64,000 nucleotides of DNA from Arthrobacter sp. B6. Its GTDB lineage: Bacteria > Actinomycetota > Actinomycetes > Actinomycetales > Micrococcaceae. The stretch lies in the NCBI RefSeq assembly GCF_001663775.1, contig NZ_KV467168.1, positions 2,545,846 to 2,609,845 of the forward strand. Direction: 5' to 3'. A program made the translations under genes and the position numbers. Positions 29,398 through 55,478 of the stretch are shown one piece after another; positions within the stretch are counted from its first letter, which is position 1, and each line of letters begins with the position of its first letter. Below the pieces are notes generated by a model. The model was given only the letters and a program-made list of their open reading frames with translations, was not told where the DNA came from and searched no databases.

Positions 29398-29458
29398 CGG
29401 TTTCGAGCGGTCGTGACGATCGCGCCTATCCCGAGCAATGATGCGACAGGAAGGTACA

Positions 29459-30241
29459 GTGGCCGCAAGCCTCAGCCTCAAGGGCGTGGACCTGCACTTC
29501 GGCGGCGTCAAGGTCCTGCAGGACGTGACCTTCGACGTCGAACCGGGTGTGATCTTCGGCCTGGTAGGCCCAAACGGCGCCGGTAAGACCTCCCTGTTCA
29601 ACTGCATCAGCGGCCACTACAAACCCAATTCCGGATCGATCACGATCAGCGGCACCGAGGTGCTGGGAAGCGCACCATACCGCCTGGCGCGCCTCGGGCT
29701 GGCGCGCACCTTCCAGCAACCCGCACTGCAATTGCACGCCACCGTGCTGGAGAATGTGCTCCTTGGCGGGCACATCAGGCTCCCCGGTTGGCCTGTTTCG
29801 TGGGCGCTGCGGCTGCCGTACACAGCGCGAGCGGAGCGCGGGATCCGCGCCGAAGCGCTCGAGCTGCTCAACCGGGCCGGGTTGGGCTGGGCTGCGGGGC
29901 TGCCCGCGGGGGAACTTTCGCATGGGCTGCACAAAGGGGTAGAGCTCTGGCGGGCGCTGCTCTCCAAACCGGCCCTCCTCCTGCTCGATGAGCCCGCCGC
30001 GGGTCTGTCGCATGGCGAGGTGGAGCAGTTCATCAAGACCGTGAGGAGGATCCGCGCCGAGCAGGACATCACGATCATCATCGTCGAGCACCATATGGGG
30101 CTGATCTCCGCCCTTACTGACCGGGTGGTGGTGCTGGACCACGGCCGCAAACTCATGGAGGGCACCGCTGCCGAGGCCCAGTCCGACGCGCGCGTGATCG
30201 AAGCGTACATCGGGAAGGACGCGGCTGATGACGCTGCTTGA
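29459..30241 (+). CDS. livG: Branched-chain-type ABC importer, ATP-binding protein (LivG-like)
   Basis: 260 residues from GTG 29459, preceded by AGGAAGG. Walker A GPNGAGKTS lies near residue 38 and Walker B LLLLDEPAAGL near 175. The signature, normally LSGGQ or LSYGQQR, reads LSHGLHKGVELW, which is unusual. Liv-type (HAAT) transporters carry amino acids, ureas and many aromatic acids. The setting among demethylase genes points to aromatic acid uptake. Overlaps livF by 14 bp. Confidence 0.88.
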   Translation: MAASLSLKGVDLHFGGVKVLQDVTFDVEPGVIFGLVGPNGAGKTSLFNCISGHYKPNSGSITISGTEVLGSAPYRLARLGLARTFQQPALQLHATVLENVLLGGHIRLPGWPVSWALRLPYTARAERGIRAEALELLNRAGLGWAAGLPAGELSHGLHKGVELWRALLSKPALLLLDEPAAGLSHGEVEQFIKTVRRIRAEQDITIIIVEHHMGLISALTDRVVVLDHGRKLMEGTAAEAQSDARVIEAYIGKDAADDAA

Positions 30242-30938
30242 ACTCACCGGCGTGACTGCGTCCTACGGGCCTGTCCAGGTGCTCGACGGGGTGGAGCTGA
30301 CTGTGCCGGAGGGCGGCTCAGTCGGGATCCTGGGCGCGAACGGGGCCGGAAAGACGACGACGCTGCGTGCCATCAGCGGCACGGTGCGCACCGGTGGACG
30401 GATCAAGTTCGAGGGACGGGACATCCGCGGTTTGCGCCCTGACCAGGTGGCAGCGCGGGGGGTTGCCCATGTTCCGGAGGGCCGTGGAACCCTCGGCCAG
30501 CTGAGCGTGCGGGAGAACCTCCTGGTGGGGGCCTACCTCCGCAAGGACAGGGGCGCCATCTCGCGCGATATTGACTACTGCCTTGACCTGTTCCCGCAGT
30601 TGCAGGACCGCGTCGGCTCGCGGGCGGCATCACTGTCAGGCGGTGAGCAGCAGATGCTCGCCGTCGCCAGGGCCTTTATGGCCAAACCCAAACTGTTGTT
30701 GCTCGATGAAGCATCCCTCGGCCTTGCGCCCAGCACATCCAAGGCGGTGTACGAGGCGATCAGGCGGCTGCGGCTCGAGTCAGGTATCGCCATGGTGGTG
30801 GTGGAGCAGAACGCCAACCTCGCGTTCTCGCTGGTGGATACTGCCACGGTGCTCGAAACGGGGCGCAACGTGCTGACCGGATCCTCGGCCGAACTCAAGG
30901 GCATGGACGAGATCCGCCGTGCCTACCTGGGGGGCTGA
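30228..30938 (+). CDS. livF: Branched-chain-type ABC importer, ATP-binding protein (LivF-like)
   Basis: 236 residues. Walker A GANGAGKTT near residue 37, signature LSGGEQQM near 138, Walker B LLLLDEASLGL near 158. The start overlaps the livG stop, so translation is coupled. It forms the ATPase pair with the LivG-like protein at the inner face of the membrane and powers the LivH/LivM permease. Confidence 0.93.
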   Translation: MTLLELTGVTASYGPVQVLDGVELTVPEGGSVGILGANGAGKTTTLRAISGTVRTGGRIKFEGRDIRGLRPDQVAARGVAHVPEGRGTLGQLSVRENLLVGAYLRKDRGAISRDIDYCLDLFPQLQDRVGSRAASLSGGEQQMLAVARAFMAKPKLLLLDEASLGLAPSTSKAVYEAIRRLRLESGIAMVVVEQNANLAFSLVDTATVLETGRNVLTGSSAELKGMDEIRRAYLGG

Positions 30939-30943
30939 ACCAC

Positions 30944-31825
30944 ATGGGCACCTTTATACAACTTGTGGTCGACGGGCTTTCGACCGGCTCAATCTACGCG
31001 GCCTTGGCCCTGGCCATTGTGCTTGTGAACCAGGCGACCGGCCTGATCAACTTCGCTCAGGGCGGCATGGCCGTACTGTCCGCTTACACCGCCTATGCAT
31101 TCCTGCAGCTCGGGCTGCCGCTCATCGTCGCCATCCTGGTCGCTGTGGTGATTTCGTTCCTCATGGGTGCGGTGATCGAGCGGTTGCTCGTCCGCAGGTT
31201 CGAGGGGGGCGATCCCGACACGGCCGTTGTGGTGACCATCGGTCTGCTCACTCTGGTCACCGGCATCTCCGCCGTACTCTGGGGCTACAACAACCTGGCG
31301 TTCCCTTCGCTTTTCCCGCTGACGAGCGTGGAGATCCTCGGCGCGGTGGTGAGTGTCCGGTCGCTCGCGACAACAGTGACAATTGTGGCGATCATGGTGG
31401 TTCTGCAGGTGCTCTTCCTCCGAACCAAGCTGGGGCTCGCGCTCCGGGCTGTCGCCGACAATCCGGGTTCCGCTGCCTTCTCGGGCCTGCCTGTCGGCCG
31501 GCTGCTGATGGTCGGCTGGGGGCTCGCCGCGGTTTTGGGAGCGATCGCCGGCGTCCTGGTTGCCCCGCAACTGACCCTCACCCCGGGCATGCTCGATACG
31601 GCGCTCGTCTACGCGCTCGCCGCCGTGATCCTGGGCGGCCTGAGCAGCCCGATCGGATGTGTGGTGGCTGCTTCGGCTATCGGCGTGCTTGAGAACCTCG
31701 TGGCCGTTTACGTGCCGCTCATAGGGCATGACCTCAAGATTGCAGTGCCGTTTGTGCTGATCTTCGTTATCCTCGTCATCCGTCCCCAAGGCCTGTTTGG
31801 ACGAAAGGTCGTGGTGAGGGTCTGA
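30944..31825 (+). CDS. livH: Branched-chain-type ABC importer, permease (LivH-like)
   Basis: 293 residues, eight or so membrane segments, starting MGTFIQLVVDGLSTGSIYAA, typical of LivH permeases, with GLALRAVADNPGSAAFSGL near residue 165 (the EAA-like loop that contacts the ATPases). It starts 5 bp after livF and its stop overlaps the livM start (TGATG). Confidence 0.93.
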   Translation: MGTFIQLVVDGLSTGSIYAALALAIVLVNQATGLINFAQGGMAVLSAYTAYAFLQLGLPLIVAILVAVVISFLMGAVIERLLVRRFEGGDPDTAVVVTIGLLTLVTGISAVLWGYNNLAFPSLFPLTSVEILGAVVSVRSLATTVTIVAIMVVLQVLFLRTKLGLALRAVADNPGSAAFSGLPVGRLLMVGWGLAAVLGAIAGVLVAPQLTLTPGMLDTALVYALAAVILGGLSSPIGCVVAASAIGVLENLVAVYVPLIGHDLKIAVPFVLIFVILVIRPQGLFGRKVVVRV

Positions 31826-32901
31826 TGCCCGCGATGTCCTCTGTTCTTGCGAATAAATCCACGCGCGTCATCCTGATTGCGGTAGTGGCCATCGCGTTGG
31901 TCGTTGCCCCGCTTATCCTGCCGGCGTTCACGAACCAGACGCTGGTGCGCATCGGAGTCTATGCCGTGGCCGTGCTGGGCCTGAACATCGTGATGGGCTA
32001 CACCGGGCAAGTAAACCTTGGGCAGATCTTCTTCGTCGGGCTCGGGGCGTATGTCACCGCCTACGGTGTCAACCACGACTGGAACATCATCCTGGTGTTC
32101 GTCGCGGCCTGCGTCGTTCCGGGCCTCGTTGGGCTGCTTGTGGCCCTGGCCGCAGCCCGGCTCGGTGGCCTGGCGATAGCGATGGTCACCATCGCCCTGC
32201 CGATCGTAGGTGTGCCCCTGGCCAAGCGCCTTGATGAGTTCACCGGCGGCTCGCAGGGCACCTCAGCCCGCTTCACGGATGCGCCGGACTGGTCGGGTCT
32301 CTACAACGACCAGTGGCAGTTCTACATTGTGTTGCTCGTGACGGCCGCCGCGTTCCTGCTGGGCCGCAGCCTCGTCCGGGGCAAGTACGGCCGGGCATTC
32401 GGCGTGGTGCGGGAGAACGAGGCCGTCGCCGCGTCCATGGGCATCTCGCCGTACCGGACCAAGGTGCTCGCATTCACGGTCGCATCGATCTTCGGCGGTG
32501 CAAGCGGCTTCCTTTACCTCGCAGCCGTGCAGTACACCTCTCCGGAGACCCTCAGCTTCGGCCACTCCATCAGCCTCGTGGCCGCGATGGTCATCGGCGG
32601 CGCGGGAAGCATCGCTGGCGCGCTTATCGGCGGCGCCTACTATGTCTTCGTTCCGCAGCTGACGAACGCCATCGATCCGAATTTGACCACCATCAGCCAG
32701 GGCGCGATTCTCCTCGTAGTGCTCTTCCTGTTGCCCCAAGGACTGGTCAGCCTTCCGCGAGTGGTCCGTCGGCTCTTCCGCCGGCGCACGTCCCGCTCCT
32801 CACTACCGGGGAATCCCCCGCAGAACTCTCCTGTGCATCAGCCGGCTACTGACGCCGCGCGGGAGGGACTCGAAAAAACAGAGAGGCAAGATCGATCATG
32901 A
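31825..32901 (+). CDS. livM: Branched-chain-type ABC importer, permease (LivM-like)
   Basis: 358 residues with about ten membrane segments and LGLNIVMGYTGQVNLGQIFF near residue 50, the LivM hallmark, then YGRAFGVVRENEAVAASMG near 185 as the ATPase-contact loop. The C-terminal 45 residues are hydrophilic and Arg/Ser/Pro-rich. It overlaps livH at its start and the substrate-binding protein gene at its stop (ATGA). Confidence 0.93.
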   Translation: MPAMSSVLANKSTRVILIAVVAIALVVAPLILPAFTNQTLVRIGVYAVAVLGLNIVMGYTGQVNLGQIFFVGLGAYVTAYGVNHDWNIILVFVAACVVPGLVGLLVALAAARLGGLAIAMVTIALPIVGVPLAKRLDEFTGGSQGTSARFTDAPDWSGLYNDQWQFYIVLLVTAAAFLLGRSLVRGKYGRAFGVVRENEAVAASMGISPYRTKVLAFTVASIFGGASGFLYLAAVQYTSPETLSFGHSISLVAAMVIGGAGSIAGALIGGAYYVFVPQLTNAIDPNLTTISQGAILLVVLFLLPQGLVSLPRVVRRLFRRRTSRSSLPGNPPQNSPVHQPATDAAREGLEKTERQDRS

Positions 32902-34154
32902 AGATTAGAAATAAGCCAGACGGGGTCCTCGGTATCGTCGCTATGGCGTCGATCATCGCGCTCTCCCTATCAGGTTGCGCCCGCGACGGTGCCGGGCAGG
33001 GTAACGGCTCGGGCTCGAGCCCCGGCATCACAGACACAGCGATCACGCTTGGGGTCACCACTCCGCTCAGCGGTCCGACAGCCGGGCCTGGAACCTGCAC
33101 TGTCGCGGGCCTCGCCGCCTACTTCGGTTCAGTGAACGCGGCTGGCGGGGTGGAGTTCGGCGACGGCAAGACGCGCACCGTCGACATCAAGTCCTACGAC
33201 GACGCATACGATCCGCAGAAAGCGCTGTCGAACTTCCAGCAGATGGTGTCCGATGGCGTATTTGCCGTCACATCCGGTCTCGGTACCCCCACCAACCGCG
33301 CCTTCCGCGAAGCCGCTATCAGCCAACAGGTCCCGCAGGTGCTCGTGATGACCGGTGACCCCCTGTTCAGCGACCGGGAGGAAAGCCCGTGGCAGCTCGG
33401 GTTCGTACCGATTTACGAGAATGAAGGAGCTGCCTTCGGCAAGCTGCTGGCAGAGTCGGACGCTCAGCATAAGGTCGCGATCCTTTCCCAGAACGACGAC
33501 TATGGCAAGGGATACGTTGCGGGGTTCAAGGAAGCCATCGGGGGCGCAGCGAATGTCTCGGTCGTTGGAGAACTGACGTACGAGGCCACCGACACGTCGG
33601 TCGATGCGCAGCTCACCCAACTCGCTGCGTCAGGTGCCGACGTCTTCTTCAACGCGATGTCGATCACTCCGCTGGTGATCTCCTCGCTGCAGAAGGCGCA
33701 ACAGATTGGCTGGACCCCCAGCTGGTTCCTCCCGTCCAATACGTCGAGCCCGACGGCGATCCTCCAGCCCGGAGGTGCGGGTGCCTACCCAGGCATTTAC
33801 TCGGTGTCGTTCTCCAAGGCGCCGCAGAGCCCGGCCTTCGCCCAGGACGCCGACGTCGTCAAGTTCCTGGCGGACCTCAAGCAGTACGGCAACTACCCAG
33901 ACATGCCTGCGTTCCCGCACTGCATGTGGAGCTACATGGTAGGAGCGACGCTGGAGGAGGCGTTCAAGAACATGACCGAACCCACGCGTGAGAACTTCAT
34001 GACCGCGCTGAGGGACATCAAGGGCCTGCAGGCGCCACTGATGCTGGAAGGCACGGCTGTGGACACCACCACCGACGGTCAGCCGGCCGTATCGACGGTT
34101 CTTGTGCAGAAGTACGACGGCAGGGGATACGGCACCGTTGAGAACTTCGGGTAG
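32898..34154 (+). CDS. livK: ABC importer substrate-binding lipoprotein (LivK-like)
   Basis: 418 residues. A lipoprotein signal peptide ends with LSLSGC near residues 22-27, then a Ser/Gly linker and a periplasmic-binding fold type I domain (ITLGVTTPLSGPTAGPG). The coding start overlaps livM. As the specificity subunit, anchored outside the membrane, it would bind the imported compound. A methoxylated aromatic acid is my inference from neighbours. Its stop lies only 5 bp from the end of the convergent padR gene, with no clear terminator. Confidence 0.92.
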   Translation: MKIRNKPDGVLGIVAMASIIALSLSGCARDGAGQGNGSGSSPGITDTAITLGVTTPLSGPTAGPGTCTVAGLAAYFGSVNAAGGVEFGDGKTRTVDIKSYDDAYDPQKALSNFQQMVSDGVFAVTSGLGTPTNRAFREAAISQQVPQVLVMTGDPLFSDREESPWQLGFVPIYENEGAAFGKLLAESDAQHKVAILSQNDDYGKGYVAGFKEAIGGAANVSVVGELTYEATDTSVDAQLTQLAASGADVFFNAMSITPLVISSLQKAQQIGWTPSWFLPSNTSSPTAILQPGGAGAYPGIYSVSFSKAPQSPAFAQDADVVKFLADLKQYGNYPDMPAFPHCMWSYMVGATLEEAFKNMTEPTRENFMTALRDIKGLQAPLMLEGTAVDTTTDGQPAVSTVLVQKYDGRGYGTVENFG

Positions 34155-34159
34155 TACCG

Positions 34160-34780
34160 CTACACGCGGGCGGCGTTCGGGTCAGACCAGACACCGCCCG
34201 CGTCTGCCAACTGGTCAATCAGCGTCAGTCCGCGCTGCGCCCAGGCGATTTCGCCACGGGCGCGGTCTACAAGGCCCTCGTAGGTGAAGCGTTTGAACGC
34301 AATGGTGCGCTCGCGGTCCTCAGGTGCAGTGACCGCGAGGCGCCGCATCAGCATGGGATTGGCGACCTCAGCGATCCTCAGGAGTTCACCTTCCCATTGG
34401 GCGAGTTCACCTTCCCATTGCACGATGTGGCGGTGGAAAAAGTCGCGGGCAGCCTCGGGTGTTGCGGTCTCGAGGTAGGCGGCCCGCAGATGGGCCGGGT
34501 CGCGGACCCGCGCGTACTCCAGCGGCGCGTGCATCCAGGCGAGGAAGGCCTGCTCCCCGGCATCGGTCACGTGGTAGATGCGCCTGGTGGCCCGCTGGCC
34601 CCGCGGCTGCTCCTCACCCTCTATCAGGTTTTCAGCTTCCATCTTGCGGAGCTCGGGGTAGATCTGCGAGTCGGGCGCATGCCACACGTGCCCCACCGAC
34701 ATGGAGAACTGCTTTTGCAGTTCGTAGCCTGAGAGCGGACCCACGCGAAGCAGCGCGAGCAGCGCGTATCGCAGGCTCAT
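34160..34780 (-). CDS. PadR family transcriptional regulator, VanR-like candidate
   Basis: 206 residues from ATG 34780, with AAGGAG 7 nt before it. The N-terminal winged helix (LRYALLALLRVGPLSGYELQ) and the C-terminal Vir_act_alpha_C-like helical domain are PadR features. Known PadR proteins answer to phenolic acids, and VanR of Corynebacterium glutamicum, which represses vanillate demethylase genes, is of this type. It is last in the unit metF-demethylase 2-padR, and a VanR-like palindrome precedes metF. A 21-bp tandem duplication (34382-34420) gives QWEGELAQWEGELL in the effector domain. Confidence 0.9.
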   Translation of the reverse strand: MSLRYALLALLRVGPLSGYELQKQFSMSVGHVWHAPDSQIYPELRKMEAENLIEGEEQPRGQRATRRIYHVTDAGEQAFLAWMHAPLEYARVRDPAHLRAAYLETATPEAARDFFHRHIVQWEGELAQWEGELLRIAEVANPMLMRRLAVTAPEDRERTIAFKRFTYEGLVDRARGEIAWAQRGLTLIDQLADAGGVWSDPNAARV

Positions 34781-34852
34781 GGAGTACTCCTTAGGTGACC
34801 GGACCGGGGTTCCAAAGGGCGTCGCCGCACCCTGAAGCCCCAGCATTCCAGC

Positions 34853-36325
<1,473 letters not shown>

Positions 36326-36336
36326 CTACGGCTGCC

Positions 36337-37230
36337 TCACTCCTGCCCGGCCGTGAATCGCCGGGCCCAGTTCGCCGTCTCCGACAGGCCGCCGAAGGTG
36401 TAGAAGTGAAGCCCTACCTGCCCCGGAAGGCCGGGGCCACGGCCTGCGGAATGGTCTGCGAGTACAGCGGCAAGATCGTTGACAAAGTTGTCAGGTCCGG
36501 CCACGCCGACGAGGTTGGTGAGTGAGAAGCCGTACTTCTTCACGATCATTGCATTCGCGCCCACGCCGAATCGGCGGGCAAAGCCCAGAAGGCGCTTGAT
36601 CCCCGCCGGGCCCGGGGTCCCGACTCGGATCGGAGCAGTGATGCCCTTGGCCCGAACCGCCTCGATCCACTCCGCGACGGGAGCGGTATCGAACGCGAAC
36701 TGGGTGAAGATGACAGTGTCAAGCCCCTGTTCCTGGAGCGCGGCGGACTTGTCTTCAAGAGCACGCCAGAGGATTTCCGTTGGGATGTCCGGGTGACCCT
36801 CGGGGTAACCTCCGATTCCGACTTCGCGTACTCCGAACTCCTGCAGGACGCCGCTGCGAATGACCGAGAGTGAGTCGCTGTAAGGACCCTCGGGGCGGGC
36901 GGGGTCACCGCCGACGGCTAGGATGTGTTGCGTGGCGTCCACATCCTGCAGGCGCCCGAGGAACTCCCTGAGCCCCTGTGTGGACTCCAACCGCCGGGCC
37001 GAGATGTGGGGTACGGGAACGAAGCCCATTTCCCGGGCTGACCTGGCGGCGGCCACGCGCATCTCAAGGTCTTCGTTGCCCAGGAAAGTCACATTGATCC
37101 TGGTGCCAAGGGGGATGAGCGTCCTTGCCTCCAAAAGGGCAGGAATGTCCTTGCCCGTCATCTCGAGGGAGAAGTCCTTCATAAGTTGATGCGATGCTGC
37201 ACGGTTGATCGCCTGCGTGCTTTTAGTCAC
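36337..37230 (-). CDS. metF: Methylenetetrahydrofolate reductase
   Basis: 297 residues from GTG 37230, with GAAGGGA about 12 nt upstream; ATG at codon 17 (MKDFSLEM) is another possible start. The TIM-barrel marks include FVPVPHISARRL near residue 70, ILAVGGDPA near 103 and FTQFAFDT near 180. In the usual direction it makes methyl-THF; in O-demethylation it runs in reverse and oxidises methyl-THF to methylene-THF, which frees the carrier. Its place directly before demethylase copy 2 supports that role. A VanR-like palindrome lies 50-67 bp upstream of its start. Confidence 0.92.
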   Translation of the reverse strand: MTKSTQAINRAASHQLMKDFSLEMTGKDIPALLEARTLIPLGTRINVTFLGNEDLEMRVAAARSAREMGFVPVPHISARRLESTQGLREFLGRLQDVDATQHILAVGGDPARPEGPYSDSLSVIRSGVLQEFGVREVGIGGYPEGHPDIPTEILWRALEDKSAALQEQGLDTVIFTQFAFDTAPVAEWIEAVRAKGITAPIRVGTPGPAGIKRLLGFARRFGVGANAMIVKKYGFSLTNLVGVAGPDNFVNDLAAVLADHSAGRGPGLPGQVGLHFYTFGGLSETANWARRFTAGQE

Positions 37231-37338: not shown

Positions 37339-38832
37339 TCAGCCCGCGGCCAAGGCGTCGGGATCGAGGTGGGCGATCGCGCGGGTGTCCTGGAATGCCC
37401 GGACTCCCTCGATTCCCTGCTCGCGGCCCATTCCGGACTGCTTCATTCCCCCGAACGGAGCGCGCAGGTCGAGCCGGGTAGCGCCATGGTCGTTGACCCA
37501 GACATAGCCGCAGACCAGCCGTCCGCCCACGCGGTTGGCTGATTCAGCGTCGGCCGTCCATACCGAGCCGCAGAGTCCGGACCAGGTGTCATTGGCCATC
37601 CGGACCGCCTCATCCTCGGTATCGAACGGAATGAGCGGGATCACCGGCCCAAACTGCTCCTGGGTGACGACGCGCAGCGATGGGTCGGGGTTGATCACCA
37701 GGGCCGGGCGCAGGAAGTTGCCGCCCTGGAGGTCAGGATCCGGCGGCAGCGTCCCGAACTCCCTGACATCGGCGCCCGCTGCCTTTGCCTCCTCGATGAT
37801 CTCAGTGACGAAAGCCTTCTGCGCCGGCTGGTGCAACGGTCCCATGGTGGTCCCCTCATCCAGTCCGTAGCCGATGACGGCCTTGTCGAGCCGGGCGGAC
37901 AGCCCCGCAACCACCTCGTCCAGGCGCGAACGGTGTACGTAGATCCGCTTTGCGTTCATGCAGATCTGCCCGGTGGTGTCGAAGATCGAGGCGTAGAGCC
38001 GGTCCAGGTGGGCGTCGTCGAGGACTGCATCCTCCAGCATGACGGCTGCGTCGTTTCCGCCGAGCTCCAGCGTCACCCTGGTCAGGGATTTGGAAGCCAT
38101 CTCCATAATGCGTTTGCCGCCGGCGACGCTGCCGGTAAAGCAGACCTTCGCGACGTCGGGGCTGGTGATCAGTGCCGACAGATCGGCGTCGTTCCCGGTC
38201 ACCACGTTGAGCACACCCGGAGGAAGTTTCTCGGCAATCCTTTGGACCACGCGTGTGGTGGCCAGCGGTGTGGTGGGCGGCGGCTTGACGATGGCGGTGT
38301 TGCCCGCGAGAAGCGCGTGAGGCAGCGAGGCCGCGAGGATGGCGATCGGCCAGTTGAACGGCACGATCACCGTCACCACTCCCAGCGGCTGGTACTGAAC
38401 GGTGGTGGACACAGGGATGCCCGGCGCCGGGGGAAGCACCTTGGCCGCATCCACGTCGTCGGCGAGGTCAAGCGCAAGGTTCCACCGGATCTCGAACACG
38501 AGCGAGTCCACCCATGACTCCATCCGGATCTTCCCGTTCTCCTGGGACAGGATCGCGGCATCCTCATCCCTGTAGTCCGCGATGCCCTCGAGGGCGGTAC
38601 GCATCTGGTCCGCGCGCTCCCTGGTGCTCAATGCCGACCAGCCGGCGTAGGCTCCCTTCGCCGCCGCAATCGCGTCCTCGACGTCGGCGGGACCAGCAGC
38701 CGCTGCATAGCCGACGATAACGCCTGGCTTGCCCGGGTCCACGACTTTGAGCGTGGAGTCTGACTGACGCTCCGTGCCCCCGATGTAAAGGCCCGTGGTC
38801 ACCGGCGCCGACGTATTGATGGTGTTGGTCAT
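37339..38832 (-). CDS. NAD(P)+-dependent aldehyde dehydrogenase, vanillin/syringaldehyde type by context
   Basis: 497 residues, standard length. Marks are PFNWPIAILAASLPHALLAG near 150, VTLELGGNDAA with the general-base Glu near 252, and the catalytic Cys in TTGQICMNAKR near 289. The family oxidises aldehydes to acids. Next to the demethylase and dioxygenase genes the best guess is an aromatic aldehyde such as vanillin or syringaldehyde. It begins 44 bp after the dioxygenase stop, on the same strand. Confidence 0.9.
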   Translation of the reverse strand: MTNTINTSAPVTTGLYIGGTERQSDSTLKVVDPGKPGVIVGYAAAAGPADVEDAIAAAKGAYAGWSALSTRERADQMRTALEGIADYRDEDAAILSQENGKIRMESWVDSLVFEIRWNLALDLADDVDAAKVLPPAPGIPVSTTVQYQPLGVVTVIVPFNWPIAILAASLPHALLAGNTAIVKPPPTTPLATTRVVQRIAEKLPPGVLNVVTGNDADLSALITSPDVAKVCFTGSVAGGKRIMEMASKSLTRVTLELGGNDAAVMLEDAVLDDAHLDRLYASIFDTTGQICMNAKRIYVHRSRLDEVVAGLSARLDKAVIGYGLDEGTTMGPLHQPAQKAFVTEIIEEAKAAGADVREFGTLPPDPDLQGGNFLRPALVINPDPSLRVVTQEQFGPVIPLIPFDTEDEAVRMANDTWSGLCGSVWTADAESANRVGGRLVCGYVWVNDHGATRLDLRAPFGGMKQSGMGREQGIEGVRAFQDTRAIAHLDPDALAAG

Positions 38833-38876: not shown

Positions 38877-39857
38877 TCACTGGCGGACGACGGGTGTTCC
38901 ATGAGTGTGGAACGTTTCGATGGTCTTCATTCCCCAGGCCTGCCCTTTTTTGCGTTCTTCCTGGGTCCACTCCACCACCGGCGAGTCGGGGTCCAGCAAC
39001 AGCCGCGCACCGGCGTTGGCGAGTTCAATGCGGTTGCCGCCGGGCTCCCAGACATAGAGGAAAAAGGTCTGGTTGATGGCATGCTTGTGCGGGCCTGACT
39101 CGATGTGGATGCCGTTCTCCAGGAAGATATCGGCTGCCTTGAGGATGTCCTCGCGGGTGTCAGGGGCGAAAGCGACGTGGTGCAGCCGGTTGCCGTGCTT
39201 AAGCCAGTCATCCGAGTAAACGATGTCGTAGGACTTGTTGTTGAAGTGGAACCACCAGGCGGCGTAACCGCCGTCGTCCAGCTTGATCCGTTCACTTTCG
39301 CGTCCCCGCAGGGCTGTAGCCACGAATTCTCCGTTGGCCACCACATCCCTGGCAAGGTAATTAATATGGTCCAGCCGCCTGGCGTTGACGCCTCGGCCCG
39401 GAAACGCGGAGGCCTGGTTCTTCAAGGCAGGCTTGTCATCGGTAGCCACGTACCGCTCGGTTTCATAGTAAATAGCCATGTCGTGCCCGTCGGGATCCCG
39501 AAAAGCATAGGCGGGGCCGGTACCCACTTCGCCGTCCACCCAGCCGACTCCGAGTCCAGTGGCTTCGATCGCCGCCACCCGTCGCTCCAGCGCCTCCGGG
39601 CTGGTGGTCCGGAACGTCGTCCGGCCAACGCCGGCGGCATCGGATGCGGTGAGCTTCAGCGTATAAAGCTGATATTCGTCCCACGTGCGCAGGTACACCG
39701 ATTTCTTTCCGGCCCTGCCATTTCCGGGGTCGCCGGACTCCGCGACGACACGCATGGCGAGCAGGTCGCGAAAGAACCACAGGCTTTCGTCGAACGTAGG
39801 CGTCAGCAGCTCCACATTCCCCAGGTGGGCGACGTCGAACGAGGTGTAATCGGTCAT
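38877..39857 (-). CDS. Type I (vicinal oxygen chelate) extradiol dioxygenase
   Basis: 326 residues from ATG 39857, with GGAGAGG upstream. Two VOC halves are visible, FDVAHLGNVELLTPTFDESL at residue 7 and RLDHINYLARDV at 161. The iron ligands of extradiol enzymes are present: His164, His226/227 (RLHHVAF) and Glu278 (GGNRIEL), with the active-site Tyr in FLYVWEP near 268. It cleaves an aromatic diol next to its hydroxyls. The neighbours (GalD-, LigK- and GalB-like) predict gallate or a related substrate, although known gallate and protocatechuate 4,5-enzymes are of the unrelated LigAB type. Confidence 0.88.
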   Translation of the reverse strand: MTDYTSFDVAHLGNVELLTPTFDESLWFFRDLLAMRVVAESGDPGNGRAGKKSVYLRTWDEYQLYTLKLTASDAAGVGRTTFRTTSPEALERRVAAIEATGLGVGWVDGEVGTGPAYAFRDPDGHDMAIYYETERYVATDDKPALKNQASAFPGRGVNARRLDHINYLARDVVANGEFVATALRGRESERIKLDDGGYAAWWFHFNNKSYDIVYSDDWLKHGNRLHHVAFAPDTREDILKAADIFLENGIHIESGPHKHAINQTFFLYVWEPGGNRIELANAGARLLLDPDSPVVEWTQEERKKGQAWGMKTIETFHTHGTPVVRQ

Positions 39858-39882: not shown

Positions 39883-40962
39883 TCACAGGCGGGGGCGCGG
39901 GAAGACGCGCCCGTCGAAAATCTTCCGCGCAGTGCGGAGGGCTGCAGAAGTGGTGACAGTGAACCCGTCAGGGGTTGATTCGACTCCGATTTCGACGTCG
40001 AAGTGGCCGGTGGGATGTTCGATCCGCAGCGGGGAGCCGGGTGACGGCAGCGCCGCGAGTCCGCGGCCCACCGACCCCTCAGCGAGCACTCCCGCGCCGA
40101 CGGTAAGGGCCCCCAGCACCCCAATTGATGTGTGCACACGCACCGGCAGGAAACTGCGGGTGGCAATGGCGCCGCCGGCGCGCGGCGGGGCCAGCAGCAC
40201 CAGCTTCGGCACGGTGGCGTCCGTGACATCTCCCATGCCCATCACCTTGGCCGCCTCAAGGCGGAGCCCCTTCAGGCGGTCTGCCAGATCGCCGTCGGCC
40301 TCAAGGTCCTCAGGTGACTCGTCGCCCTCCAGCCCGAGGTCGGCGGCGCGCATCAGGACGGTGGGCATGCCATTGTCCACGCACGTGACGTCCACTCCGG
40401 CAACCCGGTCCAGCACGTTGCCGGATGGGAACAGCGCCCCTGTTGACGAGCCGGCGGTTCCCTCGAAGTTGAGCCTGATTGCGCCCGCACTGCCGGGGAC
40501 GCCGTCGATCTCGAGGCCGCCGTCGTAGTCCACCAGGCCGCCGGGGGTGGCGAACCTGGCAATCGCCAGGCTGTCCGTGTTCAGCATGCGGATGCGGACG
40601 TCGGTGTGCCCGTCGCCGGCCGGAACGAGGCCGCGTTCAACCGCGAACGGGCCGACGCCGGCCAGGATGTTGCCGCAGTTCTGGCGGTCCGTCACGAACG
40701 CGCTGTCGACGCCCAACTGGAGGAAGAGATAGTCGACGTCGGCGCCGCCGTCGGCTGACGGTGAGATGACAGCGACCTTGCTCGTGAGGGGGTGCGCACC
40801 GCCAAGCCCGTCGATCTGCCGTGGATCGGGTGTGCCCATGATTCGCAGGAGCAGGTTGTCGCGTTCGTCGGGGTCTGCGGGGAGGTCCGCGGCGAGGAAG
40901 AACGCACCCTTGGAGGTGCCGCCGCGCATATACAGGCAAGGGATCCCCTCAACCGCGGCCAT
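39883..40962 (-). CDS. PrpF family isomerase, 4-oxalomesaconate tautomerase (GalD/LigU-like)
   Basis: 359 residues from ATG 40962 (GGGGCGG upstream); ATG 40983 is a longer option. The N-terminus GIPCLYMRGGTSKGAFF is the PrpF family signature, with GNILAGVGPFA near 90. GalD and LigU of this family interconvert the keto and enol, or the double bond isomers, of 4-oxalomesaconate in gallate and protocatechuate 4,5-cleavage. The gene start overlaps the aldolase gene, and the dioxygenase gene follows 25 bp downstream, so the four are one operon. Confidence 0.87.
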   Translation of the reverse strand: MAAVEGIPCLYMRGGTSKGAFFLAADLPADPDERDNLLLRIMGTPDPRQIDGLGGAHPLTSKVAVISPSADGGADVDYLFLQLGVDSAFVTDRQNCGNILAGVGPFAVERGLVPAGDGHTDVRIRMLNTDSLAIARFATPGGLVDYDGGLEIDGVPGSAGAIRLNFEGTAGSSTGALFPSGNVLDRVAGVDVTCVDNGMPTVLMRAADLGLEGDESPEDLEADGDLADRLKGLRLEAAKVMGMGDVTDATVPKLVLLAPPRAGGAIATRSFLPVRVHTSIGVLGALTVGAGVLAEGSVGRGLAALPSPGSPLRIEHPTGHFDVEIGVESTPDGFTVTTSAALRTARKIFDGRVFPRPRL

Positions 40963-41689
40963 GATCCGCCCCGTACTCGGCATCCCCGTACTCAGAGCCT
41001 CCGTACTCGGCAGCGCTGACGTACCGCACTCCCAGGTCCTCCAACACGCTCCGAAGCCGGTTGCGGTCCAGGCTCAGCTCGCCCTCGAGATAGGCCGCCC
41101 GGGACTCCGCCTCCTTCATCACCCTTGCATCGGCTGCTTCGCGGGCTGTCTGCGCCTCGAGGCGCGGAACGCACAGTACGCCGTCGTCATCGGCCACAAT
41201 AATGTCGCCCGGACGTACCACCGTGCCGCCGACCGTTATCGGCACATTCACCGAGCCGGCAGTCGCCTTGACAGTTCCCTGTGCGTTGACCGCGGCGGAC
41301 CAGACGGGGAACCCCATGGCCCGCAGGTCAGCGACATCCCGGACCCCGCCCGTTGTCACGAGCCCACGCACCCCGCGGTGCTGCAGCGCCGTCGCGAACA
41401 GTTCTCCGAACGATCCATCAAGCGAGGGGGAGGCAGTGGTCACAACAAGCACATCGCCTTCGCGGCACTGCTCCACCGCAGCATGGATCATCAGGTTGTC
41501 GCCGGGCCAGCACAGCACGGTGACAGCCGAACCGGCAATGCGGATCCCTTCCTGGATGGGGCGGAGCGAGGCGCCCACCAGCCCTGTGCGCCCGATTGCT
41601 TCGTGTACAGTCGCGACGCCGTGCGACCTGAGGGCGTCAATGGACGAAGGATCCGCCCGCGGGACGTCAGTGACCACTACGGTCTTCAT
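40949..41689 (-). CDS. RraA-fold aldolase, 4-carboxy-4-hydroxy-2-oxoadipate aldolase (LigK/GalC-like)
   Basis: 246 residues. The class II aldolase marks of the RraA/HMG aldolase family are present: CWPGDNLMIHAAVEQ near 60 and TTGGVRDVADLRAMGFPVW near 112 with the metal-binding Asp and Arg. The product pair would be pyruvate and oxaloacetate. The start overlaps the GalB-like stop (ATGA). The C-terminus has repeated EYG units (AAEYGGSEYGDAEYGADHG), unlike the usual end, from a short direct repeat of CCGTACTCGG. Confidence 0.88.
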   Translation of the reverse strand: MKTVVVTDVPRADPSSIDALRSHGVATVHEAIGRTGLVGASLRPIQEGIRIAGSAVTVLCWPGDNLMIHAAVEQCREGDVLVVTTASPSLDGSFGELFATALQHRGVRGLVTTGGVRDVADLRAMGFPVWSAAVNAQGTVKATAGSVNVPITVGGTVVRPGDIIVADDDGVLCVPRLEAQTAREAADARVMKEAESRAAYLEGELSLDRNRLRSVLEDLGVRYVSAAEYGGSEYGDAEYGADHGRG

Positions 41690-42417
41690 TCGAGGACCTT
41701 GGTGACCTGCGGGTAGTAGCGCATGTAGGCCTCTCCCTTGGTGTCAACCGGAAGGCCGAGGTTCGGACCCGCATTGCGCCTGACCTGGACGCCGCGGCGC
41801 ACCGCCAGTGACGTGTAGTAGTCCCACATGTGCTGCTGGGCCGGCAGGCATTGCATGGCCTGCTCCTTGGCGGCGAAGGCGGCGGTGATATCCAGCAGGA
41901 CGTCGGGTTTGAAGTCGCATTGTTCGGGCTGATGGGGCTCGAAGAAGAACACCGGCGGTGCACCCAGCACGTCGCCCGGGGCCTCGTAACCGATTGCCTG
42001 GGCAAGGATCCTGGCCTCGATTGCCAGCTTGCCGGCTGCGGGGTGGTCACCGTTGTAAGGGTCCAGCAGGGGGTGTGTCAGCACGACGGTAGGCTGCAGC
42101 CGCCGGTAGATCCGCACCAGCTCATCAAGCAGTTCCCGGCTCGGCAGAAGGGGATAATCCCCGGCGTCGAGGAATTCGATTTCGGCGCCGAGGGCCGCGG
42201 CGGCGGCCTCGGCCTCTTCGCGCCGGATCGCCTTGATTTCGTCCAGGGACTTTCCCGCCAGCCACTGGCTGGCGGACTCGCCGCGCTCACCATACGAGAG
42301 GCAGACGACGACGGCGCGGTCACCGCGGGCAGTCGCGGCGGCGATGGCGCCGCCGGCCCGCCAGACGAAGTCGCCGGCGTGCGCACTCACGACCAGCACG
42401 GTGCCTCCATTGGCCAT
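41686..42417 (-). CDS. PIG-L family hydrolase/hydratase, 4-oxalomesaconate hydratase (GalB-like)
   Basis: 243 residues from ATG 42417, with GGGAGGGA upstream. The metal site motif of the PIG-L fold appears as VSAHAGDFVW near 10 (AHPDD in deacetylases) and a second His in NGDHPAAG near 125. In Pseudomonas putida the PIG-L protein GalB hydrates 4-oxalomesaconate to 4-carboxy-4-hydroxy-2-oxoadipate. As the first gene of the minus-strand run galB-aldolase-prpF-dioxygenase-ALDH it fits that role; a deacetylase role is the alternative. Confidence 0.85.
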   Translation of the reverse strand: MANGGTVLVVSAHAGDFVWRAGGAIAAATARGDRAVVVCLSYGERGESASQWLAGKSLDEIKAIRREEAEAAAAALGAEIEFLDAGDYPLLPSRELLDELVRIYRRLQPTVVLTHPLLDPYNGDHPAAGKLAIEARILAQAIGYEAPGDVLGAPPVFFFEPHQPEQCDFKPDVLLDITAAFAAKEQAMQCLPAQQHMWDYYTSLAVRRGVQVRRNAGPNLGLPVDTKGEAYMRYYPQVTKVLE

Positions 42418-42510
42418 GATGGGTCCCTCCCGGATCGCTGTCCCATCTCTCCGCATCCTCTTGCCAGACAACCACTCTCTGGTACTCCGGTCAAGGCATC
42501 GGCTACAATT

Positions 42511-42802: not shown

Positions 42803-44281
<1,479 letters not shown>

Positions 44282-44282
44282 C

Positions 44283-44984
44283 TCAGCTGTCGGCGGGGGC
44301 CCCCGGCTCCGACGTCGAGAGGCTTCGCAGTGCGTCGATCACGCTGAGCAGGTGGCTGCGGACGGCCTGCTCGGCAGCAGCAGGATCGCGGGCGACAACG
44401 GCGTCGATGATTGCGGCATGCTCCAACACCGAGATCTTTGCCCGCTGCGGCCGCGACGAGAGTTTGAACTGGTGCCGGACGCTCTGGGCATGCAATCGGG
44501 CCAGCACGTCGGAGGCGGTGGCATGATTGCTGAGTTCACGGACCCGGACATCGAGGTAACGGTTCAGGCGCGCATATTCGACAAGGTCGCCCTCGGCGAC
44601 CGATTCAATCAGCTGGGACCGCAGGCGACCGAGTGCCTCGGCATCCTCGTCGGAAATGCTTGCCGCAGTCTTCGCCGCGCACAGGCCCTCGACACCGATC
44701 CGAACCTCAAGGATTTCGATGGCCTCCTCGAGGGAGATCGCCCGCACCCGGGATCCGCGGTGGGGCAGGCGTTCCACGAGGCCTTCGGCTGCGAGCTGGA
44801 GCAGCGCAATGCGCACTGTCGCCCGGCTCGCCGAGAAGACGTCGCCGAGATCTGCCTCGACGAGCCGTTGGTTCGGTACGTACTCACCCCGAATGATGGC
44901 ATCACGGATGAGGTCGGTCACCCTCTGATCGACGGCGGCTTCAGCTTCGGCCACCGGTGAAGCACTTTCAAGCGCTGACGACAT
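44283..44984 (-). CDS. GntR family regulator with FCD effector domain
   Basis: 233 residues. The N-terminal winged helix covers about 20-85 (VTDLIRDAIIRGEYVPNQRL, then SRATVRIALLQLAAEGLVE). The C-terminal FCD helical domain has the metal-ligand pattern with Asp and His in LDVRV, HAAIIDAV and RSHL. FCD regulators usually respond to organic acids and repress adjacent catabolic genes. It is divergent from the reductase gene at 45082 and convergent with demethylase copy 3. TTGTCTACAA in the divergent gap is its probable site. Confidence 0.9.
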   Translation of the reverse strand: MSSALESASPVAEAEAAVDQRVTDLIRDAIIRGEYVPNQRLVEADLGDVFSASRATVRIALLQLAAEGLVERLPHRGSRVRAISLEEAIEILEVRIGVEGLCAAKTAASISDEDAEALGRLRSQLIESVAEGDLVEYARLNRYLDVRVRELSNHATASDVLARLHAQSVRHQFKLSSRPQRAKISVLEHAAIIDAVVARDPAAAEQAVRSHLLSVIDALRSLSTSEPGAPADS

Positions 44985-45042
44985 GTCGACTCAGACTCCC
45001 AAATCACCCGATAACGACGGGCCCCGGATAGGGGCACCCATT

Positions 45043-45052
45043 TTGTCTACAA
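45043..45052. promoter_or_regulatory. Candidate GntR operator between gntR and the reductase gene
   Basis: TTGTCTACAA is a perfect 4-bp-arm palindrome (TTGT-CT-ACAA) of the type bound by FadR/FCD regulators (GT-N-AC core). It overlaps a TACAAT -10-like hexamer at 45048-45053 and lies 30 bp before the reductase start. Confidence 0.45.
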
Positions 45053-45081
45053 TCTTAGAACCAACGGAGGGAAGTGCTCCC

Positions 45082-45867
45082 ATGCGCGTTGCCGTTTTGG
45101 GTCTCGGGGAAGCCGGAAGCATCTACGCCGCCGATCTCGCCGAGCGGGGACTGAGCGTCAGTGCGTCCGATCCTTTGGCTCCGGCACCGCCGGGTGTCAC
45201 GCCCGCCGACGACATCGGTGGGGCAGTCCGGGGGGCTGCCCTGGTGTTGAGCCTCGTCGGTGACGAGGCGTCGGAGGCAGTCCTCGAGGAGGCCCTGCCT
45301 GCGATGGAGCCGACCGGCATCTTCGCGGACATGAATACCGCTGGTCCTGCTCGAAAGCAGCAGCTCGCGAAGCGCGCGGACCGGGACGGAATCCTTTTCG
45401 CCGACGTGGCCATCCTGGCTCCGGTTCCCCGGGCACGGATCACGACACCCTTGGTAGTGAGCGGTTCAGGCGCAGGGGAGTTAGTGCACGTCCTCTCCGG
45501 GCTCCGGATACCGGCCACCAGTGTGGGCGACAAGGCCGGGGCTGCCGCCGGACTGAAGCTGCTGCGCAGCGTTTTTATGAAGGGACTTGCCGCTACGGTT
45601 CTCGAATCCGTCACGGCCGCCCGGGCTGTTGGGGCCGAGGAGTGGATCATTAACCAGATTGCCTCAGAGCTTGGCCCCGCCGGCCCCGGGCTCGTAGCGC
45701 GAATACTTGAAGGCACGCCGGCGCACGCCCGTCGACGCGGGCTTGAGATGAGCGAGGCGCGGCTGTTCCTTGAATCGCTGGGTACCTCGCACTCCATGAC
45801 AGACGGCGCGATCGAGTGGCTGCGTTCACTGTCGGGATCGGGCGCGTCGCAATCGGATCAAAGCTGA
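45082..45867 (+). CDS. NAD(P)-dependent 6-phosphogluconate-dehydrogenase-like oxidoreductase
   Basis: 261 residues from ATG 45082, with GGAGGG upstream. The Rossmann start VAVLGLGEAGSIYAADLAER and the C-terminal helical DUF1932-like domain (AAGLKLLRSVFMKGLAATVL near 155) place it in the beta-hydroxyacid dehydrogenase group. Its place beside the GntR gene in the island suggests a side step, for example reduction of an oxo-acid intermediate, but no defined step of gallate breakdown requires it. Followed by about 140 bp without a gene. Confidence 0.82.
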   Translation: MRVAVLGLGEAGSIYAADLAERGLSVSASDPLAPAPPGVTPADDIGGAVRGAALVLSLVGDEASEAVLEEALPAMEPTGIFADMNTAGPARKQQLAKRADRDGILFADVAILAPVPRARITTPLVVSGSGAGELVHVLSGLRIPATSVGDKAGAAAGLKLLRSVFMKGLAATVLESVTAARAVGAEEWIINQIASELGPAGPGLVARILEGTPAHARRRGLEMSEARLFLESLGTSHSMTDGAIEWLRSLSGSGASQSDQS

Positions 45868-54031: not shown

Positions 54032-54907
54032 GTGCCGCAGCACATTAATGCCCAACAGCTTCCCGGCGACGAGGCCGTACCGGCCGCCGAACCCCATGCC
54101 GGCCACCTGCCCCCTGACCGCGCCATCGAGACCCAGGCCGATCTCAGTGCAGAGATCAATGCCTTGGCCGACGCCTATGCGCGGGCGCTCAAGGACGGCG
54201 GGGCCGTGGAGACCCAGCCCCGTTTGGACTACCCGCCCTACCGCAGCAGCATCCTGCGGCACCCCACCAAGAGCCTGCACCACGCGGATCCCGAGACCAT
54301 CGAGCTGTACTCGCCGGCGTTCGGGCACCAGGACGTGCACGCCCTGGAGTCGGACCTGACCATCCAGCACAACGGCGAACCCCAGGGTGAGCGCATTATT
54401 GTCGCAGGCAAGGTCCTGGACGGTGACGGCCGCCCGGTGGCCGGCCAACTCGTGGAAATCTGGCAAGCCAACGCCGCGGGCCGCTACATCCACAAGCGTG
54501 ACCAGCACCCGGCTCCGCTGGACCCCAACTTCACGGGCATCGGCCGCTGCATCACCGGCCCGGACGGCTCCTACCGGTTCACCACCATCAAGCCCGGCGC
54601 ATACCCGTGGAAGAACCACCTGAACGCCTGGCGTCCGGCCCACATCCACTTCTCCATGTTCGGCACGGAGTTCACGCAGCGGATCATCACCCAGATGTAT
54701 TTTCCCGGCGACCAGCTGTTCCCGCTGGATCCCATCTACCAGACCATCGTGGACCAGGACGCCCGGGACCGGCTGGTGGCCAAGTACGACCACAGCCTCA
54801 CCGAGCCGGAGTGGGCGCTGGGCTACACCTGGGACATCGTCCTGACCGGTCCCAAACGGACGTGGACCGAAAACGAAGCGCTCGGCGCAGAGGGTGATGA
54901 GGAATAG
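54032..54907 (+). CDS. pcaH: Protocatechuate 3,4-dioxygenase, beta subunit
   Basis: 291 residues from GTG 54032, with AAAGGGG upstream. The intradiol fold covers about 115-270, with iron ligands in the Tyr of GRYIHKRDQ and GAYPWKN and the His pair in RPAHIHFSMFG. The N-terminal 70 residues are longer than in proteobacterial PcaH, as usual in actinobacteria. With PcaG it opens protocatechuate between the two hydroxyls to 3-carboxy-cis,cis-muconate. First gene of the cluster, with the candidate PcaR site upstream. Confidence 0.97.
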   Translation: MPQHINAQQLPGDEAVPAAEPHAGHLPPDRAIETQADLSAEINALADAYARALKDGGAVETQPRLDYPPYRSSILRHPTKSLHHADPETIELYSPAFGHQDVHALESDLTIQHNGEPQGERIIVAGKVLDGDGRPVAGQLVEIWQANAAGRYIHKRDQHPAPLDPNFTGIGRCITGPDGSYRFTTIKPGAYPWKNHLNAWRPAHIHFSMFGTEFTQRIITQMYFPGDQLFPLDPIYQTIVDQDARDRLVAKYDHSLTEPEWALGYTWDIVLTGPKRTWTENEALGAEGDEE

Positions 54908-54911
54908 CCTG

Positions 54912-55478
54912 ATGAGCAACCAGACCACGAAGCTTGTTCCCACCCCCGGGCAGACCGTCGGCCCGTTCTACGGCTATGCGCTCCCGTTCGAGAAGGACAG
55001 TGAACTCCTTGCCCCCGGCTCGCCGGGCTCCATCCGGCTCCAGGGCACCGTTTATGACGGCGCCGGCGAGACCGTTCCGGACGCGATCCTGGAAATCTGG
55101 CAGCCCGACGCCGACGGCAAGGTCGTCCAGAAGACCGGATCCCTGGTCCGCGACGGCTACACCTTCACTGGCTGGGGCCGCGGCGCCGTGGGCTATTCGG
55201 GAGTGTTTACCTTCACGACGGTCAACCCCGGGCCCATGTCACCCGGCGCGGCGGCGTTCATTTCTGTGGCCGTCTTTGCCCGCGGCCTGACGAACCGACT
55301 GTTCACCCGCATTTACCTGCCGGAGAACGAGGACGCCCTGGCCAAGGACCCGCTGCTGTCCTCCCTGGACCCGGGACGCCGCAGGACCCTGATCGCGCGC
55401 CGCGATACTGACGGCGGTCTGACCTGGGACATCCACCTGCAGGGTCCGGACGAGACAGTCTTCCTGGACTTCCGGTGA
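54912..55478 (+). CDS. pcaG: Protocatechuate 3,4-dioxygenase, alpha subunit
   Basis: 188 residues from ATG 54912, with GAGG upstream inside the end of pcaH; length is normal. TPGQTVGPFYGYALPF near residue 10 and DAILEIWQPDADGKV near 60 are intradiol family marks. The alpha subunit lacks the iron ligands and shapes the active site with PcaH. It starts 4 bp after the pcaH stop and overlaps pcaB by 4 bp. Confidence 0.96.
   Translation: MSNQTTKLVPTPGQTVGPFYGYALPFEKDSELLAPGSPGSIRLQGTVYDGAGETVPDAILEIWQPDADGKVVQKTGSLVRDGYTFTGWGRGAVGYSGVFTFTTVNPGPMSPGAAAFISVAVFARGLTNRLFTRIYLPENEDALAKDPLLSSLDPGRRRTLIARRDTDGGLTWDIHLQGPDETVFLDFR

Follow-up and report, generated by a model that had tools for sequence, protein, structure and literature searches.

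A candidate gallate-cleaving dioxygenase of the VOC fold in an Arthrobacter O-demethylation island

We analysed a stretch of 64,000 nucleotides from the soil bacterium Arthrobacter sp. B6 (contig NZ_KV467168.1, positions 2,545,846 to 2,609,845; hereafter the window), in which a VOC-family ring-cleavage gene is accompanied by the following features.

29438..34154, plus strand: ABC importer of the branched-chain amino acid type (two ATPases, two permeases and a binding protein; subunits named by eye)
34160..34846, minus strand: PadR family regulator (PF03551)
34853..36265, minus strand: LigM-type tetrahydrofolate-dependent aromatic O-demethylase 1 (NF047885, 853.5 bits, cut-off 580)
36337..37230, minus strand: MTHFR-like protein of the tetrahydrofolate-dependent O-demethylation module (PF02219, 27.7 bits, cut-off 24)
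37339..38832, minus strand: aldehyde dehydrogenase (ALDH; PF00171)
38877..39857, minus strand: VOC (type I) extradiol ring-cleavage dioxygenase (ligands H164, H227, E278; Y210 and K208)
39883..40983, minus strand: 4-oxalomesaconate (OMA) tautomerase, GalD/LigU type (NF033377, 488.7 bits, cut-off 440)
40949..41689, minus strand: 4-carboxy-4-hydroxy-2-oxoadipate (CHA) aldolase, GalC/LigK type (NF006731, 311.7, cut-off 179)
41686..42471, minus strand: PIG-L family protein, probable OMA/KCH hydratase of the GalB type (PF02585; GalB by context)
42842..44281, plus strand: LigM-type O-demethylase 2, divergent (NF047885, 909.5 bits, cut-off 580)
44283..44984, minus strand: GntR/FCD regulator (PF00392, PF07729)
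44983..45867, plus strand: DUF1932/NAD-binding protein (PF09130, PF03446), a recurrent companion of OMA clusters
54032..55478, plus strand: pcaHG, protocatechuate 3,4-dioxygenase beta and alpha subunits (TIGR02422, 349.7, cut-off 296.4; TIGR02423, 180.3, cut-off 126.25)

The VOC gene, complement(38877..39857), is an intact minus-strand open reading frame of 326 amino acids with an ATG start, directly upstream of which lies the purine-rich GGAGAGGAAAAG. It belongs to a minus-strand series in the order PIG-L, aldolase, tautomerase, VOC, ALDH, MTHFR-like, LigM-type and PadR, in which the PIG-L and aldolase genes overlap by 4 bp and the aldolase and tautomerase genes by 35 bp, and gaps of 25 bp and 44 bp separate the VOC gene from the tautomerase and ALDH genes, respectively.

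The initial annotation had taken the neighbours for genes of gallate/protocatechuate 4,5-cleavage, and the family models bear this out: the GalD-like tautomerase and both LigM-like proteins score above their cut-offs, the GalC-like aldolase passes one of two (under the second CHA-aldolase model, TIGR02798, it reaches 277.3 vs. 304.5), and a PIG-L protein, 76% identical to that of an R. opacus island discussed below, stands in the place of GalB. The two LigM-type proteins, which are 72.7% identical, both pass the vanillate/3-O-methylgallate O-demethylase cut-off, and neither passes that for syringate O-demethylase (DesA model; 614.1 vs. 800 for O-demethylase 1). From the O-demethylase, tautomerase and aldolase scores we therefore conclude that the island encodes the O-demethylation of methoxylated aromatic acids together with the steps that carry OMA into central metabolism, which are known from gallate catabolism by the gal genes of P. 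putida (excerpts of PMC12314914). At E 1e-6 the window gave no match to LigI-like, LigJ, LigA, LigB, tannase, PobA or VanA references, nor to the hydrolases linked to LigAB in R. opacus and Roseomonas. For the ALDH, none of the 25 matches listed (out of 41) reached its NCBIfam cut-off; its candidate substrates are syringaldehyde/vanillin or, in a rival reading considered below, CHMS. The importer could possibly serve aromatic acid uptake; its binding protein had no NCBIfam match at 1e-20, and in Agrobacterium, Roseomonas and Thermus the VOC gene also has an annotated importer of this kind next to it.

The VOC protein is clearly of the type I fold. It passes Pfam PF00903 (55.2 bits vs. a cut-off of 20.6) and no other Pfam family, the LigB domain PF02900 of the type II enzymes GalA/DesB and LigAB being absent. 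An AlphaFold2 model (pLDDT 84.6, from a 52-row alignment) has the two-module fold and superimposes over nearly the whole chain on the type I extradiol dioxygenases AphC (Z 40), XylE (Z 36) and HPCD (Z 33), with Z scores of 26.7-40.3 across the 50 structure entries shown. Among family models it comes closest to catechol 2,3-dioxygenase (TIGR03211), and among folds to the alkylcatechol enzyme AphC (34% identity), as would be expected if it were simply a catechol or alkylcatechol 2,3-dioxygenase standing beside OMA genes by chance or with a broad specificity. Against this, the score lies below the equivalog cut-off (295.2 vs. 320.2 bits), a tyrosine replaces the catalytic histidine, and the genomic contexts described below differ, so that we consider this explanation highly improbable. 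The homoprotocatechuate 2,3-dioxygenase model TIGR02295 (HpaD) also gave a score under its cut-off (162.4 vs. 321.4 bits).

Alignment with HPCD places its ligands H155, H214 and E267 at H164, H227 and E278 of the VOC protein, and the positions of N157, W192, H248 and Y257 are kept. Of the intact His164, His226/227 and Glu278 reported in the initial annotation, the metal ligands of a two-domain VOC enzyme thus stand, with H227 as the ligand and H226 a mere neighbour; the second-sphere histidine does not, since HPCD His200, which we take to be the catalytic acid/base residue (His199 being its counterpart in XylE), aligns with Tyr210. Two HPCD arginines that presumably lie at the substrate carboxylate, R243 and R293, are also absent, being replaced by S254 and G305.

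The tyrosine is characteristic of a whole group of relatives. In an alignment from which matches spanning fewer than ~230 query residues were dropped, and the window's own copy (L001) excluded, 105 of the 107 relatives that share at least 50% identity with the protein carry Tyr at position 210 and the other two His, a count in which a single Nonomuraea gene supplies two rows (L037 and L044), whereas all 20 relatives below 50% carry His. With P0001 and PDB entry 9wgj added, the Tyr group has 107 rows, all of which have Lys at 208; the metal ligands H164 and E278 are present in 107/107 and H227 in 106/107. The Tyr group is one side of a branch with support 97/84 in a tree of 78 rows, and two His-type rows of the phylum, L020 and L021, lie just outside it. 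Judged from the alignment and tree, the relatives at 50% identity or more are one clade and the His-to-Tyr substitution at position 210 is a notable change within it. Because the His-type L021 also adjoins aldolase and hydratase genes (none being found in the short L020 stretch), the association with OMA genes may predate the substitution. One further locus, L131, appeared as a Tyr-210 member in pairwise tblastn, but in the MAFFT alignment the same gene (L024) carries His, and we counted it as distant. Two oddities were seen in this set: in the clade member of Microbacterium sp. 67-17 (L069), which has no OMA gene near and is possibly decaying, H227 reads Arg; and L079 comes from a contig titled Rhodococcus sp. 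(MAG) whose taxonomy line in the tree reads Cyanobacteriota, a conflict of labels.

The initial annotation had also called the VOC gene the only ring-cleavage gene in the island. It is the only one that we recognised in the island; beyond the island the statement does not extend, since pcaHG is located ~14 kb away (window positions ~54.0-55.5 kb) and a separate HpaD-type VOC enzyme occurs elsewhere in the genome (449.8 bits on TIGR02295, cut-off 321.4). Of the findings named there as speaking against a new activity, neither was made at the level of sequence. No LigB-family gene was found in the genome, which is 99.99% complete, by a search that was positive in 4 of 14 control genomes, and this rules out a LigAB system elsewhere in the genome as far as LigB is concerned; the LigA search gave no match either, but as it was negative in every control genome too, its result carries no weight on its own. 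As for a homoprotocatechuate or catechol enzyme, the genome has its own HpaD-type gene, and the VOC protein falls under both model cut-offs and is without the HPCD arginines 243 and 293.

Across bacteria the gene keeps similar company. The clade occurs in Actinomycetota, Alphaproteobacteria, a Pantoea plasmid and a Thermus plasmid. Among the 80 named loci that ranked highest of 576 confirmed in a contig scan, and which are thus not an even sample, at least one of GalB, GalC, GalD, LigJ and LigI lies within 8 kb (or the stretch end) in 59, an aldolase and a tautomerase accompany a hydratase (GalB or LigJ) in 42, LigM is present in 24, a DUF1932-type marker in 25 and a LigI-like gene of the PDC hydrolase type in 12; LigA or LigB was found within 8 kb in none. 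Around 17 distant VOC loci (44% identity or less, flanks of up to 8 kb), an OMA-pathway gene or tannase was found in 0/17. The same picture emerges from 396 genomes drawn evenly from the phylum, of which 62 had some VOC match: GalB, GalC or GalD lies within ~1.5 kb in 14 of 15 other-genome loci at 54% identity or more (the exception being L020) and in none of the 14 loci retrieved at less than 40% (~29-39%). Loci that share ancestry are not independent events, and 59/80 vs. 0/17 must be read as such; with 14/15 vs. 0/14 beside it, we regard chance placement next to OMA genes as ruled out, which weighs against the catechol explanation. So does the catechol-type context of a Geobacillus relative at 35% identity (keto-pentenoate hydratase, aldolase, acetaldehyde dehydrogenase), which was not recognised among the island proteins scanned.

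The 21 loci of the 80 that lack an OMA gene within 8 kb, a point against the gallate reading proposed below, come from Bradyrhizobium (14), Microvirga (1), a short Bradyrhizobiaceae contig (1), Sinomonas (2) and Microbacterium (3); a CHA aldolase over cut-off was found elsewhere in all 17 of their genomes that were searched and in 1 of 14 controls. Plasmid-borne VOC genes lie between hydratase and aldolase genes in Agrobacterium (followed by tautomerase and tannase), Thioclava and Rhizobium, and a Thermus plasmid carries the VOC gene together with a hydratase and an aldolase. Five clade members, namely L038 and four of the 80 named loci (L055, L057, L074 and L093), have a tannase-family gene nearby (PF07519, 366.8 to 437.9 bits, cut-off 29.8); in A. 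tumefaciens the tannase directly follows the series hydratase-VOC-aldolase-tautomerase. Since tannase releases gallate, these neighbours point to gallate as the substrate, independently of the methoxy-acid genes.

A second line of evidence came from the same genus and from LigC. Protocatechuate 4,5-cleavage yields a semialdehyde that needs the LigC dehydrogenase and the PDC hydrolase LigI, whereas the cleavage of gallate gives OMA directly. Among 101 genomes of the genus, the VOC clade is present in 16 (14 with at least 91% identity and two with 68-69%), GalB with at least 90% in nine, all of them VOC carriers, and the tautomerase with at least 77% in 13, again all VOC carriers. LigB-family genes occur in 39 of the 101 genomes and in six of the 16 carriers, none being found in the other ten. 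The co-occurrence is incomplete, which weighs against the gallate reading: five of the 14 close carriers (91% or more; G403, G405, G411, G420 and G429) miss the GalB ortholog; four of these five keep the tautomerase beside the VOC gene, with the nearest listed CHA-type aldolase ~26-30 kb away. Three loci of the genus (L187-L189) have aldolase-tautomerase-LigJ-LigI-LigA-LigB-LigC clusters without a VOC match, and LigC stands with LigB in all 13 genus loci read (L187-L189 and L160-L169), these being the best 13 of 58 listed LigB matches. With the LigC query at E 1e-8, matches were found in 0/94 VOC-clade loci (four of which span less than 8 kb) and in 0/12 further same-genus loci; the window has a weak match at 284-811 (33% over 185 residues), 38 kb away, and a weaker one lies in L134, of the distant group. 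As LigC accompanies LigB but no VOC-clade locus, gallate, cleaved directly to OMA, is the favoured substrate. The formation of OMA from gallate has also been shown for PcaA (excerpts of PMC8431788).

On this evidence we propose, with a probability of roughly 70%, that the VOC protein is a type I extradiol dioxygenase which opens gallate to OMA in a syringate/3-O-methylgallate pathway, in place of the type II enzymes GalA/DesB. Three options had been left by the initial annotation, a new substrate, a new cleavage position or two folds converged on gallate, and it is the last that the operon, the tannase links, the absence of LigC and the lack of a LigB gene in the genome favour.

The arrangement of the ALDH gene bears most directly on a different substrate. 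The order VOC-ALDH-MTHFR-LigM is kept in 10/10 same-genus loci read (L170-L174 and L177-L181, out of 13 other close carriers), and an ALDH so constantly placed directly downstream of the VOC gene suits a semialdehyde product, against the gallate reading. The VOC protein would then be a protocatechuate 4,5-dioxygenase of the VOC fold in a route from vanillate through protocatechuate to CHMS, with the ALDH replacing LigC in the conversion of CHMS to OMA and bypassing PDC. Both O-demethylases, which score as vanillate/3-O-methylgallate types, would fit, as would a plasmid of Thermus oshimai (pTHEOS01, L125), on which the VOC gene is grouped with genes for an ALDH, a GntR regulator, DUF6282, a PIG-L hydratase, a CHA aldolase and a DUF1932-type protein, and with a nearby 4-hydroxybenzoate 3-hydroxylase that scores over one model's cut-off and under another's, so that a thermophilic protocatechuate meta-pathway is possible there. 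Yet no ALDH match was found in 37 of 42 complete VOC/OMA clusters, and neither an ALDH nor a DUF1932 match in 18 of the 42, in the stretch read; in a Microbacterium locus (L062) the ALDH-MTHFR-LigM genes lie on the strand opposite to GalBCD-VOC; pcaHG is available for protocatechuate in the same window; and LigC is absent from all 94 clade loci at the threshold given above. We therefore read the ALDH, on the strength of the Microbacterium strand split, as belonging with the demethylation genes, where it might act on vanillin or syringaldehyde, and consider protocatechuate an unlikely substrate for the Arthrobacter protein. The clade as a whole may be mixed in substrate: the Thermus context favours protocatechuate, which part of the clade may therefore cleave, and the LigI-like genes near 12 of the 80 loci, which a direct cleavage of gallate to OMA would not require, suggest that the products of some members pass through PDC. 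A DUF1932 protein as the missing CHMS dehydrogenase is also unlikely, given that L187-L189 carry both LigC and a DUF1932-type gene (the L187 copy at 20.5, below the Pfam cut-off of 25) and that 18 of the 42 complete VOC clusters are without DUF1932 and ALDH. DUF1932/NAD-binding proteins recur beside VOC and LigAB OMA clusters alike, in the window (44983-45867) and in L038, L039, L040, L042, L125 and L187-L189.

The ring could also be opened before the second demethylation, which would make the protein a 3-O-methylgallate dioxygenase whose product reaches OMA through CHMOD or PDC. The LigM island and the LigI-like neighbours of 12 of the 80 clade loci are compatible with this, and in R. opacus and Roseomonas comparable islands carry a LigA-LigB-alpha/beta hydrolase set like the mga system of Pseudomonas NGC7 (excerpts of PMC12314914). 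At E 1e-6, however, nothing in the window matched LigI-like references or the hydrolases from R. opacus and Roseomonas, two LigM copies could take syringate on to gallate, and the obvious substrate of the tannase-linked members is gallate, not its methyl ether; we judge this route somewhat less probable still than cleavage of protocatechuate.

The R. opacus island, on a plasmid of DSM 44186, has GalB, GalC and LigM at 76%, 65% and 73% identity to those of the window and also an MTHFR gene, and the 25 kb read contained class III LigA/LigB genes, with neither VOC nor LigC matched there. In this island one ring-cleavage fold is naturally exchanged for the other. As an exact swap it is weakened by the resemblance of its LigA-LigB-hydrolase set to the mga system for 3-O-methylgallate (excerpts of PMC12314914), a substrate that the island may likewise serve, and by the lack of a tautomerase match in the stretch. 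On a Roseomonas mucosa plasmid (L039, 7046-9963), genes for a LigA-like protein, LigB, an alpha/beta hydrolase and the VOC protein stand in a row, both ring-cleavage folds being adjacent.

If gallate is indeed the substrate, the LigM-type enzymes, identified by model, would transfer methyl groups to tetrahydrofolate, and the resulting gallate would chelate Fe(II) or Mn(II) at H164, H227 and E278, ligands that are placed by alignment. Attack by O2 would then cut the bond adjoining the chelated diol and, because the neighbouring carbon bears a hydroxyl group too, would be expected to give the diacid OMA with no need for an ALDH; GalD, GalB and GalC, of which GalB is assigned by context, would convert OMA to pyruvate and oxaloacetate. 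Proton transfer would presumably be taken over by Tyr210, tuned by Lys208 or aided by the third hydroxyl of gallate. Loss of the catalytic histidine could equally mean altered or weak activity. We hold only tentatively, at somewhat less than even odds, that the clade evolved gallate cleavage independently of GalA/DesB, with the Lys208-Tyr210 pair or the third hydroxyl of the substrate replacing the catalytic histidine as acid/base.

Among known systems, GalA/DesB and LigAB, of the type II LigB superfamily, occupy the same pathway position, with OMA passing to tautomerase, hydratase and aldolase, as in the OMA route fed by GalA of P. putida (excerpts of PMC12314914), but their fold is unrelated to that of the VOC protein, which has no LigB match. 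That known gallate and protocatechuate 4,5-dioxygenases are of another fold, as first supposed, agrees with excerpts of PMC3962378, where three SYK-6 ring-cleavage enzymes are type II and the convergent evolution of types I and II is discussed, and with excerpts of PMC4250580 (AromaDeg), which place gallate dioxygenases in the LigB superfamily. AphC of Rhodococcus RHA1 (7q2a, 3lm4), a type I alkylcatechol dioxygenase, shares the fold and the metal ligands; unlike the VOC protein, it retains the catalytic histidine and falls outside the Tyr clade. HPCD/MndD and HpaD share the fold, the ligands and the N157, W192, H248 and Y257 positions, and differ in that H200, R243 and R293 of HPCD correspond to Y210, S254 and G305; HPCD variants at position 200 have been crystallised and their structures solved. 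The best PDB sequence match, 9wgj (352.5 bits, residues 5-324), has Tyr at 210 and lies in the clade on a long branch, so that someone may already have worked on the clade; it was deposited as 'Catechol 1,2-dioxygenase', a name at odds with its VOC extradiol-type fold. PraA, the protocatechuate 2,3-dioxygenase of Paenibacillus JJ-1b, has the type I fold and a product outside the OMA route. It likewise cleaves the ring of a catechol acid (excerpts of PMC7814577), a likeness drawn from its description.

Gallate is a breakdown product of lignin and tannins, and gallate and syringate are central to their breakdown. The AromaDeg list of substrates for VOC dioxygenases, given 'among others', names neither gallate nor protocatechuate in the excerpts of PMC4250580, and in the open-licence literature of PubMed Central, which leaves subscription journals mostly outside, we identified no description of a VOC-fold gallate dioxygenase. 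Going by sequence comparison, what is new here is probably a new substrate and an altered catalytic site for a type I extradiol dioxygenase. If this holds, gallate degraders would have been overlooked in many actinobacteria and rhizobia because their enzyme carries the label 'catechol 2,3-dioxygenase' or 'VOC family protein', and the clade would offer a clear example of the same reaction reached from two folds, in which nature has swapped a residue that is well studied in HPCD. Two further kinds of locus were noted: tautomerase-LigJ-aldolase-LigI clusters (L190, L191, L192 and L193) with no VOC-clade or LigB match in the stretch to supply their OMA or PDC, and loci of Bradyrhizobium and Roseibium in which genes for molybdenum hydroxylase and cytochrome c are found close to the VOC gene (L106, 11163-15038; L041, 4596-7688).
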